NCBI GenBank assembly: GCA_030446805.1
Contig: JAUJMO010000001.1
Span: forward strand, 1,073,241-1,137,240
Reading direction: 5' to 3'
Source: Caulobacteraceae bacterium
GTDB taxonomy: Bacteria; Pseudomonadota; Alphaproteobacteria; Caulobacterales; Caulobacteraceae
Length of the DNA: 64,000 nt
The notes under the pieces were generated by a model. It did not search any database, was not told the DNA's origin, and saw nothing but the letters and a program-made list of their open reading frames with translations. The translations under genes and the position numbers were made by a program. This document shows positions 48,864 through 55,798 of the stretch, in pieces; position 1 is the stretch's first letter, and every line of letters starts with the position of its first letter.

Positions 48864-50354
48864 CTAGCGCTTGATGCGCAGCAGTTCTTCGAGCATCTCG
48901 TCCGCGGTCGTGATGATCTTGGACGAAGCGGAATAGGCCCGCTGGGTCGTGATCAGTCCCGTGAACTCCGCCGAAAGATCAACGGTGGAAGACTCCAGCG
49001 TGGAAGGCGAGATGAAGCCGGCCCCACCGGTCCCTGGCGCCTTGAGATTGTAGGTGCCGCTGTCGAGAGAAACCTGGAAGGCGTTGCCCGAGACCGCCTT
49101 CATCGCGTCCGTGTTACCGAAGGTGGCGATGGCGACCTGGGCGATCTGACGCGTGACGCCGTTGTCGAACTCGGCGGCGACGTAGCCCTCGTCGTTGATG
49201 TTGATCGAGGTCAGGTTCCCGAACGGCGTGCCATTGGTGTTGATGGTCTCCACGAAGCTCTTGGTGCTGAACTGGCTGAGGCCGCCGGCCGCGAGGCCGA
49301 AGTCGAACCGGACGTCCTGCGACTGGATGCCGAGGTTCGTGTTCCACTTCACGTCCTTCGACGTCGCGCCCGGAGTTGCGGCGTCGGAGGCCCCCAGCCG
49401 GATGACCGGCTCCGGGGGCGCCTTGGTGGTGGCGTTGACGTCCCCGAACAGTCCTACGCCGGCGGGGAACAGGAAGGCGGGATCATACTTGCCGTCTTGC
49501 GTGAAGCCGATCTTGCCCACCTTGATCTGGCCGTTGTTCAGCCCGCCGCCGATTTCGACATCCCCCTTCGGCACGGAGCGGATCTCCACGTGCCACACGT
49601 TGGGATCAGCGCTCTTCAGGAAGGACATGGTCAGCGAGCGCCGACCGCCCTTCGAGTCCGAGACCGGCACCTGGAACTCGAAGTCCGGCTTGGTGCCGAT
49701 GGGCGGAGTCGCGGTGGGGTCGTAGGCGGCCATGCTGGTCGTCGCCTTGGCCGCATCGTAAGCCGCCGGATCGGTCGGATCGCTTTTGGCGAGGGCGGCC
49801 GCCACGGACACCGCCTGATTTGAGTTCAGGTTCGTCTTGGTCCCGATCCGGGTCGTCTTCTCGGCGGTGCCGCCGATGGCGGTGACGTTGATGGTCTGCA
49901 GCTTGGTCAGGTCGGACGGGTCGCTCAGGACCTTGCCCTCCTTGTCGATGGGCCAGCCCTGCAGATACAGGCCCGCCGCGTTCTTCAGATAGCCCAGTTG
50001 ATCCAGCTGGAAGTTGCCGGCCCGGGTGAAGGAGCGGGCGTCGGTGGGCTGAACGCCTTCGGGCTTGTCGGTCACCACGAAGAAGCCATTGCCCTGGATG
50101 CCGAGGTCGGTGGAGGTGGTGGTCTGCTGCAGCAGGCCCTGCTGGCCCACGAATTGCCGCGTCCTGGTGGTCACGCCCCCGGCGTTGTAGCTGCCCTGCG
50201 CCGCCCGCGCCGTGACGATGGTCTGGAAGTCGGCCTGGCTACGCTTGTAGCCGACCGTGTTCACATTGGCGATGTTGTCCGACAGGGCGGCCAGGGCCGC
50301 CGAGTTGGCCTTGAGGCCGGAAACGCCGGCGAGGAGCGAGCTGTTGATGCTCAT
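48864..50354 (-). CDS. flgE: flagellar hook protein FlgE
   Basis: 496 aa. The N-terminal rod-type helix reads LLAGVSGLKANSAALAALSD, then NIANVNTVGYKRS, and the C-terminal helix carries ITTQRAYSASSKIITTADEM. Long central domains make it bigger than the E. coli hook, as in Caulobacter FlgE. It polymerises under FlgD to form the hook. A sigma-54-like promoter lies about 60 bp upstream. Confidence 0.96.
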   Translation of the reverse strand: MSINSSLLAGVSGLKANSAALAALSDNIANVNTVGYKRSQADFQTIVTARAAQGSYNAGGVTTRTRQFVGQQGLLQQTTTSTDLGIQGNGFFVVTDKPEGVQPTDARSFTRAGNFQLDQLGYLKNAAGLYLQGWPIDKEGKVLSDPSDLTKLQTINVTAIGGTAEKTTRIGTKTNLNSNQAVSVAAALAKSDPTDPAAYDAAKATTSMAAYDPTATPPIGTKPDFEFQVPVSDSKGGRRSLTMSFLKSADPNVWHVEIRSVPKGDVEIGGGLNNGQIKVGKIGFTQDGKYDPAFLFPAGVGLFGDVNATTKAPPEPVIRLGASDAATPGATSKDVKWNTNLGIQSQDVRFDFGLAAGGLSQFSTKSFVETINTNGTPFGNLTSININDEGYVAAEFDNGVTRQIAQVAIATFGNTDAMKAVSGNAFQVSLDSGTYNLKAPGTGGAGFISPSTLESSTVDLSAEFTGLITTQRAYSASSKIITTADEMLEELLRIKR

Positions 50355-50452: not shown

Positions 50453-51154
50453 TTAAGCCGCCGCCTTGATCCGAGCAGCGGGCTCGCGGACGGACGTGAT
50501 CGACTTCATCGGGATCCGGACGGAACCCACGGTGAGCCAGGGCTCGCCGTCGATGGACTCAACCGATGTGACCTTCCCGACCGTGTTGACCGGAGCCTCG
50601 AGGGGCTTGCCGTTCAGGGCCCAGGCCTTGACGGTCAGGGTGTAGGTGCCGCTGGTCGCCTTGTCGGGCAGAACGACCCCGTCCTTCACCACTGTGCCGT
50701 CCCAGGCGATGTCGTGCCGACCCTTGGTCAGCAAGGTCTCGTCGACGTCCCACGAGTTGACCACCTGGCCGGCCGCGTTGCGGACCTCCGCCGTGGCCAT
50801 GTTGGCGTCGCCGGGGAGTTCATAGCTCCATTCGGCCATGCCCTTGCTCATCTCCGCCGTGCCCTTCTCGGCGGTGACCTCCTTGCCGATCAAGTTGACC
50901 GCGCTGCCGATGGCGTCGCTTCCCTTGTTCACCAAGGAGGTGAGCAACTGGTTGGACAACAGTTGCTGCTCGACGCCTGTCATCTGGACCAGTTGCTGCG
51001 TGAACTGGTTGCCGTCCATGGGCGCCAGGGGATCCTGGTTCTTCAGTTGGGTGGTCAGCAGCGACAGAAAGGTTTCGAAGTTCTCGGCCAGGCGCGTGCG
51101 CCCGGCGCCCACGCTGGCGTCGGCGGTTGCGGCGGAAACGGCGGAGATCGCCAT
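50453..51154 (-). CDS. flgD: flagellar hook capping protein FlgD
   Basis: 233 aa. It has the FlgD block FETFLSLLTTQLKNQDPLAP, then MDGNQFTQQLVQMTGVEQQL, and a Tudor-like C-terminal domain (about 90-215). FlgD caps the growing hook and is lost later. It lies between fliK (4 bp) and flgE (98 bp). Confidence 0.94.
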   Translation of the reverse strand: MAISAVSAATADASVGAGRTRLAENFETFLSLLTTQLKNQDPLAPMDGNQFTQQLVQMTGVEQQLLSNQLLTSLVNKGSDAIGSAVNLIGKEVTAEKGTAEMSKGMAEWSYELPGDANMATAEVRNAAGQVVNSWDVDETLLTKGRHDIAWDGTVVKDGVVLPDKATSGTYTLTVKAWALNGKPLEAPVNTVGKVTSVESIDGEPWLTVGSVRIPMKSITSVREPAARIKAAA

Positions 51155-51158
51155 GGGT

Positions 51159-53354
51159 CTAGATCCTCACATCGAGGCCGGCGCGGTCGCGCAGGCGCAG
51201 GGGGAGAGCGGGAAGAATGTCGGCGGACTCAGCCTGAAGCAGCGCGGCCTGGAAGGCCTGGGCGCGGGCCTGCTGCCCTCCGCTGCGAGACTGACCCGGG
51301 TCGCCGCTGGGGCGTTCGCGGCCTTGTCCGTGCTCGAAGCTGAGCCCGCCCTTGGACAGGTCGAAGCCGGCCTGCTCCAGCGCTCGCTGAAGCTCGGCGC
51401 CGCGGCTGCGCAGCTCGGCGGCTGCTTCGGGCCGCTCAAAGGCCATCTGGGCCGTGAGCCGTCCATCAGCGCCGATGTCGATGCTGACGTTGACGACCCC
51501 CAGGCCAAGCGGGTCCAGGGCCACCTCGAAGCGGCTGTTGCGCGCTTCCAGCTTGCGCGCGATCTCGGCGGCCAGGCTGGCCACCGTCTCCGGCGAGCCC
51601 CGCACCGGAACCGTCGCGGACCGGGCCTCAGCGGAGGCGGGCGTGGAGGACGGCGGGGCCTGGGGCTCCTGCACCTCGGGACCGGCCGGCTCCGGCGCCG
51701 TTTCGGCCGCCTCAAGGACGCCAGGCTGGCTCGTGACCGGGACCGCTGCAGGCGCGAGAGGGTCGCCAGAGACCGAAGCCGCCCCGGCTTGCGCACGAAC
51801 CGGGGAGGTTTGCGCCTCCGGAGCGGCCGTCGAAGTCGATCCGGGCTGCGGGCCGACCCCCGGACGGTCCGACGTCTGAGTGGTCCCCTTTGACGATGCA
51901 ACGCGCTCCGCCATGGCGTTGCGTATGGTCTGGGCCACCACGGGCGCGGCCACCTGTTCACCGGTGATCGACAGCAGCGCCGAATTGGAGAGCACCGCGG
52001 CAAGGCCGGCGGGCGCGCCGGCGCTGGCCGCAGCAAGCTCGGGGCGAGGAAGCTCGGTCGCGGGGACCTGCGCAGGCGCGATGTTGGACGGAACCGTCGG
52101 CGTCGCGGCCGGGGTCGTCCCCGCCACCGTGCGCTGAGACGCTGAAGGCGGATCGAAGACCGAAGCGTGGTTCGCAACCGCAGCGTGTGCGCCCGGTGGC
52201 GCTGACGGCAGAGCGGCCGCTGCAAAGGCTTCGGGTTCGACCGATGGAGCCGCCTGCGCGGGCGGCGCCCCGGTGGGCGGAGGCGGTCCGTCCGCCTGCA
52301 GCAAGGCCGCGGCCGGAGCGCCCATGTCCGCTGCATCTGCAGACCTCGGCTGGACCGCTTGAGCCCGCTGAGTTCCCGGGCGGTCGGATCCCACCTTGAT
52401 TTCCGTTTGGGGAGCTACGGCCCCGGCGGCTGGCGCGGCCGCAGCTACAGGCCCGGGTCCGGCTACGGCTGCGAGCGCGGGTGCGGCTGCGGGTGCGGCT
52501 GAAGCTGAGGCTGAGGCTGCGGCTGAGGCTGAGGCTGCGGCTGAGGCTGAGGCTGAGGCTGAGGCTGAGGCTGCGACTGAGGCTGCGGCTGCGGCTGCGG
52601 CTGCGGCTGCGGCTGCGGCTGCGGCTGACGCTGAGGGTGCGGCTGAGGGTGCGACTGAGGCTGAGGCTGAGGGGGTCGACAGCGCTTGCTCGGCGGTCGA
52701 AGCCAGGGGCTGAGCGGACGCCGCCTGCACAGCCGGGCCCGCGGCGGCGGATCCGCCAGAGACGGCCAGTGTCGCCTCGACGCCCGCAGGCGTCGCCGGG
52801 AGCGGGGCCGGCGCACCGACCGTGATCGTCTCGAGCGTCCGATCGAGGTCGGCCACCCCGGCCCCCTTCATCGCGGGTGCGCCGGACGCAGCCGATCCTG
52901 TCTCGGCCTCCACCAGCCGCGAGGTCGCCTCTGAAGCGACGGACGCCTTCGCCCCAATCACCTCGAGCAAGACGCTCCGCCCCGGCTTCACCCAGGGGGC
53001 CGCAACCGGCGTGGAGCCCGCAGTGTGAACATCTCCGAGAGGCGACGGGGCGGCGCTTAGGCCGGCTTGGGCCTTCACGGGCGTCACGAGCGCGGAGGCC
53101 GGGCTCGGCTCCTGCAGAGCGAAGACGGCCTGCATCATAGCCGCAACCGAGACGTCCGCCGGCGCGGAAGCCGCGACCACGGCGGGCGCTTCCGCCGCTG
53201 CGGCGGGCGCGTTCACGGTGGACGCGGCATCCACGCCCAGCGCCGACGCCAGCACCCCGGCGAAGTCCGACGGGGCCTGCCCGTCCGCACCGACGGAGGG
53301 TGCGCCGGTTGCAGAGACAGCCCCAGGAACGTTGATGAGCGCAGCGGCGTGCAT
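51159..53354 (-). CDS. fliK: flagellar hook-length control protein FliK
   Basis: 731 aa from the ATG at 53354; an extended frame upstream is weaker. The conserved C-terminal domain is at about 630-720 with VALDPLGLGVVNVSIDIGAD and GADGRLTAQMAFERPEAAAE-like residues. The long N-terminal part is Ala/Pro/Ser-rich and includes a poly-Ala/Ala-Ser repeat (about 225-288). FliK measures hook length and switches export specificity. It starts the fliK-flgD-flgE unit. Confidence 0.88.
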   Translation of the reverse strand: MHAAALINVPGAVSATGAPSVGADGQAPSDFAGVLASALGVDAASTVNAPAAAAEAPAVVAASAPADVSVAAMMQAVFALQEPSPASALVTPVKAQAGLSAAPSPLGDVHTAGSTPVAAPWVKPGRSVLLEVIGAKASVASEATSRLVEAETGSAASGAPAMKGAGVADLDRTLETITVGAPAPLPATPAGVEATLAVSGGSAAAGPAVQAASAQPLASTAEQALSTPSASASVAPSAAPSASAAAAAAAAAAAAAAASVAASASASASASAAASASAAASASASAAPAAAPALAAVAGPGPVAAAAPAAGAVAPQTEIKVGSDRPGTQRAQAVQPRSADAADMGAPAAALLQADGPPPPTGAPPAQAAPSVEPEAFAAAALPSAPPGAHAAVANHASVFDPPSASQRTVAGTTPAATPTVPSNIAPAQVPATELPRPELAAASAGAPAGLAAVLSNSALLSITGEQVAAPVVAQTIRNAMAERVASSKGTTQTSDRPGVGPQPGSTSTAAPEAQTSPVRAQAGAASVSGDPLAPAAVPVTSQPGVLEAAETAPEPAGPEVQEPQAPPSSTPASAEARSATVPVRGSPETVASLAAEIARKLEARNSRFEVALDPLGLGVVNVSIDIGADGRLTAQMAFERPEAAAELRSRGAELQRALEQAGFDLSKGGLSFEHGQGRERPSGDPGQSRSGGQQARAQAFQAALLQAESADILPALPLRLRDRAGLDVRI
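52490..52680. repeat. low-complexity repeat inside fliK
   Basis: On the plus strand this is a run of GCTGAG and GCTGCG hexamers, about 190 bp, coding on the minus strand for poly-Ala and Ala-Ser residues. The unit length is a multiple of 3, so changes in copy number would keep the frame. Confidence 0.85.
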
Positions 53355-53417
53355 GCGGGCCTTTCGGTCCGATGGTTCAGCCGCGCTTGCTGCGCGAGGA
53401 GGTTCACCAGGGTCCAA

Positions 53418-53556: not shown

Positions 53557-53701
53557 GGGAAGGGAACGGGCGCTCGTTGGGGGCGCAAAGGCCTTGTGAG
53601 GAAAAACAAGGAGTTGGAGGCCTGGCTGCGGCGAGAACGCCCGTGGACCCGGTCAGGGTTGCCTAGCGATCGGCAAGATCGGCCGGGTGAGGAGCGCAAC
53701 A

Positions 53702-55798
53702 ATGTCGCTGACCAGCGCCTTGAACATCGCCAGTTCGGGCATGCGCGCCGCCCAGACCGGGCTGCGCACCGTGTCCGACAACATCGCCAATGTGAACACC
53801 GCCGGCTACGCGCGGAAGATCGTCGACCAATCCCCCACGGTGATCAGCGGCGCGGGGGCGGGCGTTCAGGTGGACGGCATCCGACGCGCCACCGACAGCT
53901 ATCTGCAGAGAGCCATGCTCGACGGCACAGCCGAAGTGGGGCGATCGGGCGTCGTGGCCGAGTTCCTCGACCGCGCTCAGGGCCTGTTCGGGGATCCGAG
54001 CGAGAAGTCCTCCTTCTTCAACCGCCTGGACCCGATCTTCACGGCCTTTTCGCTGGCCAGCGAGAACCCGACTTCCGGATTGCGGTTGAGCGAAGCGGTC
54101 GTGCAAACCAAGCGCTTTTTCGACGACGCCGGCCAGATCGGCTCCGAACTCCGGGAACTGGGTCGCCAGACCGGAGTGCGCATGGAATCCGTCGTGAGCC
54201 GCGCGAACGGGCTGCTGGACGACATCAACGCGCTGAATTCGGAGATCTCCCGCTCCGTGGTGACCGGCCGCGACGCCAGCGGGGCGGAGAACGTCCAATC
54301 CCGCCTCATCGATGAGCTCAGCAAGCTTGTCGAGATCAAGGTCGGCTCCGGCCCACGGGGCGGGGTCACCCTGGCGGTGGCGGACGGGACCCTGCTCACC
54401 GGCGAGAACCGGGGCCGTTTCGAACTCGCCTCCGAGAACGGCGGACCACCGTCGGTTCGGCTGAAGTTCGACTTCGGGAGGCCGGTGGTGCTCGCCGACG
54501 GCCTGGGAGGCGGCGAACTCAAGGGCCTGATCGAGCTGCGCGACAAGATCCTCCCGGAGTTGGGGGAACAGTTGGGCGAGTTCACCACGCGCGCCGCCGA
54601 CGCCCTCAACCGCGCCCACAACGCGGCCTCCACCGCGCCCGCGCCGACCAAGCTCGTCGGACGGCCGATCAACACCCCGATCGCGAACGCCGTCGAAGGG
54701 TTCAAGGGCCGAACGGCCGTGGTTGTCACGAACCCGGACGGCACGGTGAAGCGACGCGTGGACATCGACTTCGACGCGCGGACCTTCTCGGTCAACGGCC
54801 AGCCCCCCACGAGCTGGACGCCCGCCGACTTCAGACAGGGCCTCAGCAACAGCCTCGCTCCAGACGGCGGCGCTTCCTTCAACGGCGCCCTCGAGGTCGC
54901 CACCAGCGCCGGAGGGGGCGTGAGCATCGTCGACGATCCGGTCGCGCCCAGCCATCGCGCCGGGCGAGGGTTCTCGCACTATTTCGGCATGAACGATCTG
55001 GTGACCTCGTCCGAACCCGCGTTCTACGACACGGGCCTGACGGCGGCCGACCCGCACGGCTTCGTGGCGGGCGGGGAGATCAGCTTCCGTTTCAACGACG
55101 GAACAGGGGCCCGGTTCGCCGACGTAAAGGTCGCGATCCCCACCGGCGGCACTCTGGGCGATCTCCTGGGGGTGCTCAACGGCGCCAGCGGCGTCGGCCA
55201 GGCGGGATCCTTCAAACTGGAGAACGGGGCGCTCCGCTTCACCAGCAAGGTCCAGCCTGTGGTCTCCCTGAGCGTGCTGGAGGACCGCACGACGCAGGCC
55301 ACCGGCGGCGAGAGCCTCACGGCGCTGCACGGCCTGGGCGCTCAACGCGCTCTGCGGGCCGAAACCTTCTCCGTCCGGTCCACCATCGCCTCGGATAATC
55401 GGCAGCTATCCATGGCGCAGTTCCAGTGGAACGCCGGCGTGGGCCAGATCGGCCTGGCGCGCGGGAACGGCCAGGGCGGCGTCGGCCTGGCCCAGGCTTT
55501 CGAGACGAACATCGCTTTTGATCGCGCCGGCGACGCCAGCGCCACGGTAGCTTCGGTGGCCAACTACGCCGCGCAGATGGGCGGGGGCCTGGGCAGCCGA
55601 GCCTCCATCGCGGAGGAACGGCAGGCTGGAGCCGAGATCGTTCTTGACGAGGCCGCCGCCCGCCGCTCCTCCGTGGAGGGCGTGAACCTCGACGAGGAAC
55701 TCGTCCAGCTCACCGTCTACCAGCAAGCGTTCAACGCCTCCGCCCGCCTGATCACGGCGGCGAAGGAGATGTACGACGTGCTGCTTTCCATCGCTTAG
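53702..55798 (+). CDS. flgK: flagellar hook-associated protein FlgK
   Basis: 698 aa from the ATG at 53702, with a GAGGAG Shine-Dalgarno. The N-terminal helix LTSALNIASSGMRAAQTGLR, then TVSDNIANVNTAGYARK, and the C-terminal LVQLTVYQQAFNASARLITA are standard. FlgK is the first junction protein between hook and filament. It is followed by flgL 14 bp later. Confidence 0.94.
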   Translation: MSLTSALNIASSGMRAAQTGLRTVSDNIANVNTAGYARKIVDQSPTVISGAGAGVQVDGIRRATDSYLQRAMLDGTAEVGRSGVVAEFLDRAQGLFGDPSEKSSFFNRLDPIFTAFSLASENPTSGLRLSEAVVQTKRFFDDAGQIGSELRELGRQTGVRMESVVSRANGLLDDINALNSEISRSVVTGRDASGAENVQSRLIDELSKLVEIKVGSGPRGGVTLAVADGTLLTGENRGRFELASENGGPPSVRLKFDFGRPVVLADGLGGGELKGLIELRDKILPELGEQLGEFTTRAADALNRAHNAASTAPAPTKLVGRPINTPIANAVEGFKGRTAVVVTNPDGTVKRRVDIDFDARTFSVNGQPPTSWTPADFRQGLSNSLAPDGGASFNGALEVATSAGGGVSIVDDPVAPSHRAGRGFSHYFGMNDLVTSSEPAFYDTGLTAADPHGFVAGGEISFRFNDGTGARFADVKVAIPTGGTLGDLLGVLNGASGVGQAGSFKLENGALRFTSKVQPVVSLSVLEDRTTQATGGESLTALHGLGAQRALRAETFSVRSTIASDNRQLSMAQFQWNAGVGQIGLARGNGQGGVGLAQAFETNIAFDRAGDASATVASVANYAAQMGGGLGSRASIAEERQAGAEIVLDEAAARRSSVEGVNLDEELVQLTVYQQAFNASARLITAAKEMYDVLLSIA

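Follow-up and report, generated by a model that had tools for sequence, protein, structure and literature searches.

An in-frame hexamer array in fliK of a Caulobacteraceae bacterium as a candidate slippage-prone site in the hook-length ruler

The fliK locus

The window, a 64,000-nucleotide stretch of a Caulobacteraceae genome (contig JAUJMO010000001.1), contains a group of hook genes in which fliK adjoins flgD and flgE and is divergent from flgK–flgL (Table 1). The identification of the gene at 51159–53354 as fliK is supported at the sequence level, its product matching the Pfam Flg_hook profile (PF02120) at 44.1 bits (E 1.8e-11, cut-off 29.8); a search of NCBIfam gave no family at E up to 0.01, and a sequence search of PDB returned nothing up to an E of 1. 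An alternative in-frame start, a TTG at 53417 upstream of the ATG, would lengthen the protein to 752 aa. Among the neighbours, FlgE matched the Caulobacter-type model NF040922 over its whole length (E 1.3e-219), its 730.4 bits falling below the cut-off of 750, and scored above the threshold set for the subfamily model TIGR03506. FlgD matched 11 FlgD-type NCBIfam models (best E 2.2e-34), none of them above its curated cut-off, and FlgK scored 261.2 bits against TIGR02492 (cut-off 170.75).

Table 1. Coordinates of the hook genes and FliK features, numbered from the first letter of the window
Feature	Position	Strand	Details
flgE, hook protein, Caulobacter type	48864..50354	-	NCBIfam NF040922 flgE_Caulobact
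flgD, hook cap (scaffold) protein	50453..51154	-	NCBIfam FlgD-type models
fliK, flagellar hook-length control	51159..53354	-	731 aa, ATG at 53354; Pfam Flg_hook
FliK C-terminal T3S4/Flg_hook switch domain and tail, residues 600–731	51162..51557	-	Pfam
In-frame hexamer array, Ala-Ala/Ala-Ser, residues ~228–298 of FliK	52460..52669	-	TRF
flgK, hook-filament junction protein	53687..55798	+	TIGR02492; Pfam FlgK_D1

The last five residues of the protein are LDVRI. According to the accessible part of Omnus et al. (PMC8545394), the corresponding tail of Caulobacter FliK, LDIRI, is recognized by Lon and required for function, and that protein is named a hook-length regulator on the basis of its domain and of effects on motility and flagellin, not of hook measurements. 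The Caulobacter crescentus protein (CC_0900) probably comes from the same bacterial family as ours; it differs, as far as a comparison by description goes, in that the same part of PMC8545394 mentions no repeat array.

A hexamer array within fliK

TRF found one period-6 array in the whole window, with 35.0 copies, 83% matches and a score of 229, the runner-up among all arrays scoring 66. The unit on the coding strand is CAGCCG, read as GCC GCA or GCC TCA, and the encoded peptide is built of Ala-Ala and Ala-Ser pairs, interspersed with occasional Val, Pro and Leu. The original prediction had placed an in-frame hexamer repeat encoding poly-Ala/Ala-Ser in fliK, at 52490–52680 of the window; we recovered the repeat with a start about 30 bases earlier and found it to lie before the C-terminal switch domain.

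The array is not a chance repeat. Synonymous codon shuffles preserving the protein (n = 200) reached at most 147 with a mean of 78, and shuffles of codon order (n = 200) at most 71 with a mean of 37. Among arrays of period up to 12 it ranked first in the window together with 400 kb of further sequence sampled from this genome, ahead of one scoring 86, while arrays of longer period in the 400-kb sample scored up to 784. The latter include two long-unit tandem repeats that outscore the fliK array, at L142:10153-11466 (unit 276 bp) and L145:9364-10867 (units 90 and 99 bp). Searched across the whole genome with at most one mismatch, a degenerate hexamer pattern gave 21 overlapping matches in the array and 3 more at a single location elsewhere; a reversed control pattern gave 6 matches. 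The location elsewhere is a second, short CAGCCG array (L127:2117-2158; G000:C5:120116-120157), which can be read as a Pro-Gln run close to the N-terminal end of a protein with an MltA domain.

In the same genome, we also noted a pentamer array of GGGCT with about 8.6 copies (L144:1267-1309; G000:C1:1446267-1446309), situated between a 210-residue open frame on the minus strand and another minus-strand gene. As its period is 5, its copy number could change promoter spacing.

Structure prediction for FliK

The AlphaFold model of FliK (33 sequences) had a mean pLDDT of 50.4 with a confident core in the C-domain, where residues 611–680 reached a block pLDDT of 77–91. The region before the C-domain, with a mean column identity of 21% among the 33 sequences, was almost all coil, and before residue 588 the model contained a single helix, at residues 242–267 inside the array (block pLDDT 50–67). 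Poly-alanine is readily called helical, so this helix counts as weak evidence, and its low confidence makes the rise per residue within the array uncertain. In a Foldseek search of the model against PDB, the best match was the SS (switch) domain of PscP, an injectisome ruler (E 4.1e-3, TM 0.64 by target), and none reached an E of 0.001 or lower.

Signs of a DNA-level repeat

All 17 serine codons of the array are TCA. The same codon encodes 4 of the 59 serines in the remainder of fliK and, across six neighbour genes, 2 of 175. Similarly, GCA accounts for 16 of the 45 alanine codons in the array, for 11 of 162 in the rest of the gene and for 7 of 363 in the six neighbours. Since TCA is used uniformly and the score of the array exceeds those of all 200 protein-preserving shuffles, we regard it as a repeat at the DNA level. 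The array could instead reflect protein-level selection for an Ala-Ser-rich segment, serving as a helix or as an easily unfolded export substrate, with no DNA-level process involved. Ala-X dipeptide runs before the domain in other family members (Ala-Thr, Ala-Gln, Ala-Pro) would agree with this, as would the location of the sole predicted helix before residue 588; nevertheless, selection acting on nothing but an Ala-Ser peptide would be expected to favour common codons, and codons that are both rare and uniform argue against it. We therefore consider this explanation rather improbable, while noting that slippage and selection are compatible, slippage supplying the variation and selection keeping it.

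The longest exact internal repeat of the array, found at a shift of 6, spans 41 bases and corresponds to a 47-base pure run, which fits a recent expansion. Folding strongly favoured the G-rich strand of the array, which reached -52.5 kcal/mol (z -2.92); the value for the C-rich strand was -15 kcal/mol (z +3.83). An asymmetry between the strands is a feature of known slipping repeats and would favour slipped hairpins. An RNA element at the array was considered and dropped because the coding-strand RNA showed less structure than shuffled versions of it (z 1.98).

Copy number in the sister species

The genus was represented by two genomes, and we compared the window with the other one, a metagenome bin with coverage 4.2 (contig JAHWJX010000004.1), hereafter the sister. 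TRF gave 15.0 copies for the sister array against 35.0 in the window, a difference of 20 units or 120 bp that amounts to 40 aa and keeps the frame. The original prediction held that the copy number could change without breaking the frame and so alter hook length; it is supported in part, by the in-frame change between the two species, and the identical repeat length that would have spoken against it was not what we saw there. With one genome for each of two species, the difference may be a gain or a loss of units. The frame and the C-terminal switch domain are intact in both species. The sister contig stops about 70 bases past the array, leaving the N-terminus and the full length of its FliK outside the record.

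The length difference is concentrated in the array. It contains 40 gap columns, while the 454 flanking codons that could be aligned contain 2: one in the left flank (22 codons), one in the middle of FliK (300 codons) and none in the C-domain (132 codons), which is 96.2% identical. FlgD is 88.8% identical to its sister counterpart with one gap column, and FlgE has 8 gap columns, so the array is not the sole site of indels at the locus.

A copy difference in such data could be spurious, the repeat having collapsed in the assembly of a low-coverage bin. The coverage of the sister and the proximity of the contig end make an under-called array conceivable, but the sister array has interruptions of its own (GTC, TCC and CCC codons) and is not a collapsed pure repeat, both of its flanks are present, and no exact repeat inside it is longer than 26 bases, the corresponding length in the window being 41. 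Repeats of 26–41 bases are within the usual word sizes of assembly. We consider an assembly artefact quite improbable.

The dN/dS ratio between the two species was 0.057 for the C-domain of FliK and 0.63 for its middle part, in comparison with 0.23 for FlgE and 0.17 for FlgD. The high ratio of the middle part is partly due to a low dS (0.145; 0.35–0.49 elsewhere), and its dN of 0.091 is lower than the 0.112 of FlgE. The ratios for the array (4.9) and the left flank (1.15) were set aside as they are based on 10 and 11 differences, respectively.

Along the locus, synonymous divergence varies from patch to patch. Fourfold sites differ from the sister at 24 of 201 positions in FliK residues 296–596, at 2 of 55 in FlgD residues 1–100 and at 31 of 67 in the remainder of that protein (L043/L002), and the divergence rises to 0.64 in parts of FlgE. 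This pattern looks like mosaic ancestry, and for FlgD and FliK recombination between lineages is possible; if so, the 20-unit change would lie within a rather young segment. A scan of the genome contigs with FlgD returned 4 loci, the sister bin at 91% identity and others at 38–44%, a Phenylobacterium bin being among these relatives. The Phenylobacterium relative and the flgE_Caulobact match both fit a placement of the genome in Caulobacteraceae.

Possible consequences for hook length

In-frame coding microsatellites have a unit that is a multiple of three, and their copy number alters the length of the protein only. FliK would differ from the general case by being a measuring device, so that the number of units may translate into a physical length. 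We read the tract as a slippage-prone microsatellite in the ruler part of FliK, allowing coarse tuning of hook length over evolutionary time, and give this reading a probability of roughly 0.6. The first step, replication slippage inserting or deleting two-residue units, is read indirectly from the 35 versus 15 copies at the same site, the rare uniform codons and the long pure runs. Three features would make the resulting length changes tolerable: a unit length divisible by three, small residues and a segment predicted to be mostly unstructured. With FliK threaded through the growing hook, the array would then add to its end-to-end distance, and more units would give a longer hook.

That the array stretch acts as a ruler is carried over from Salmonella and should be understood in that light. 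In PMC6126814, Salmonella FliK variants of 363–785 residues are reported to give hooks of 42–135 nm, with 0.2 nm for each inserted residue. On this slope, one unit would correspond to 0.4 nm and the difference between our two species to about 8 nm, and a 20-unit change may thus alter the hook by several nanometres over evolutionary time. As the scatter of wild-type hook length is given as 4.5–5.6 nm in PMC6972891, slippage by a single hexamer would be nearly silent and only large changes would matter. The slope itself may fail here since, according to the same paper, deletions in the Salmonella linker both shortened the hook and loosened its control. Furthermore, the inserts measured in Salmonella were helical pieces of YscP, unlike the Ala-Ser repeats here (PMC6126814/PMC6972891). 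The engineered variants resemble our case in that they belong to the same family of proteins and alter the region preceding the switch domain, but they are helical insertions and deletions in a protein of 405 residues, whereas we observe a natural dipeptide repeat in one of 731, and the hosts belong to different classes of bacteria.

With steps this small, the array reads as a slow tuning site or as neutral drift and not as an on/off switch. A simple sequence repeat within a motility gene could bring to mind a contingency locus that switches motility between cells by phase variation. We dropped this explanation as hardly credible: a 6-base unit cannot shift the frame, and the approximately 0.4 nm predicted for one unit is below the scatter of hook length.

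Neutral slippage deserves more weight. Under this explanation, the array drifts in length within a tolerant spacer with no useful effect on the hook, possibly as the segment stays compact or as measuring relies on other contacts. It would be in line with the dN/dS of 0.63 in the middle of FliK and with the predominance of coil in the model, but the linear lengthening of hooks by Salmonella inserts (PMC6126814) means that 40 silent residues would need a special reason. An effect on length is also separable from selection, and a real change in the hook may be nearly neutral. PMC6126814 argues that hook length is optimized for the stability of the flagellar bundle, and a single polar flagellum may bring looser selection on it. 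We consider drift with no useful effect possible, though on the unlikely side. The confidences attached to these explanations overlap, as slippage, selection and a hook effect are mutually compatible.

Variation of a type III ruler through repeat length is known. Among Y. enterocolitica strains, the natural length of YscP, the needle ruler of the Yersinia injectisome, ranges from 452 to 538 residues by the number of internal repeats with units of 14, 25 and 46 aa, and needle length is said to follow YscP size (PMC3469391). The likeness to our case is that of a secreted type III ruler whose length varies by internal repeats; the YscP units are long, the variation is within a species and the structure is an injectisome, whereas the FliK array has a two-residue unit, differs between two species and has an inferred effect. 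A dipeptide microsatellite in a flagellar ruler is hence the point of difference, and among the titles and abstract openings of the open-access literature searched, we found no report of a fliK repeat.

A coding microsatellite predicted to set the length of a cell structure on the nanometre scale would let the ruler model be tested cleanly in nature, along with the strictness of selection on hook length. The fliK array is a concrete site where the hook lengths of close species may differ; if the hook proved indifferent to the array, the simple ruler model would apply to these bacteria only within limits.

Repeats and length variation in family fliK genes

To place the array in the context of the family, we used a search that gave a match in 358 of 390 genomes from 22 genera and hand-picked 80 further fliK loci among the best-scoring matches listed, mostly from genus g6. 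Three of the 80 had fewer than 300 residues and were left out, giving 77 loci for the array statistics. TRF arrays covered 3.51% of fliK before the domain and 1.56% of the domain stretch, in comparison with 0.35% and 0.12% of the DNA adjoining the gene; part of the 3.51% is due to low-complexity composition. With the window and the sister included, 38 of 79 genes contained an array with a score of at least 50 before the domain, and the period was divisible by 3 in 81 of the 86 array rows from these 79 genes, overlapping rows counted. Nine of the 79 genes, again including the window and the sister, scored above all 60 protein-preserving shuffles, and in 20 of the 79 at most 3 of the 60 shuffles reached the observed score. 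The family-wide excess of DNA-level repeats in fliK is thus modest. Other hexamer arrays in the family encode Ala-Thr (G179), Ala-Gln and other X-Gln (G057 and G310) and, in a short array, Ala-Pro (G056), and these arrays of differing units probably arose independently more than once.

The length of FliK before the domain varied from 299 to 1096 aa among 75 of 82 genes, with a standard deviation of 108 against 10 after the domain start, a spread to which the simple first-start rule used for the starts contributes. This contrast is what neutral slippage in a tolerant spacer would also produce. One FliK-domain open frame of 1234 residues (L117, G141) is far longer than the others of the 75; without it, the standard deviations were 77 and 9.9, and the region before the domain in the window, at 599 residues, was the longest of the remaining 74.

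The set of close pairs omitted the sister, genes that were short or cut, and any pair with a difference of over 3 residues in the domain stretch. An internal gap was present before the domain in 86 of the 88 pairs, from 39 genomes, and in the domain stretch in 28 of the 88. Whole-protein identity was at least 80% in 11 pairs, and the largest internal indel before the domain among these was 14 residues after trimming of overhangs, so the family usually moves by smaller steps than the array of the window, and the 40-residue change is an outlier in the family. Length differences of 48 and 50 residues in close g6 pairs were rejected as N-terminal overhangs of the first-start rule.

A broader reading would extend slippage to the family, with Ala-X microsatellites growing independently in each lineage and tuning the FliK rulers, and hook length being a quantitative trait whose mutation rate is unusually high and its changes reversible, perhaps tolerated as a single polar flagellum forms no bundle. 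We find this generalization doubtful. Elsewhere in the family, we observed longer in-frame tandem duplications inside fliK, of 108 bp in L087 (G193), 75 bp in L080 (G071) and 42 bp in L091 (G104).
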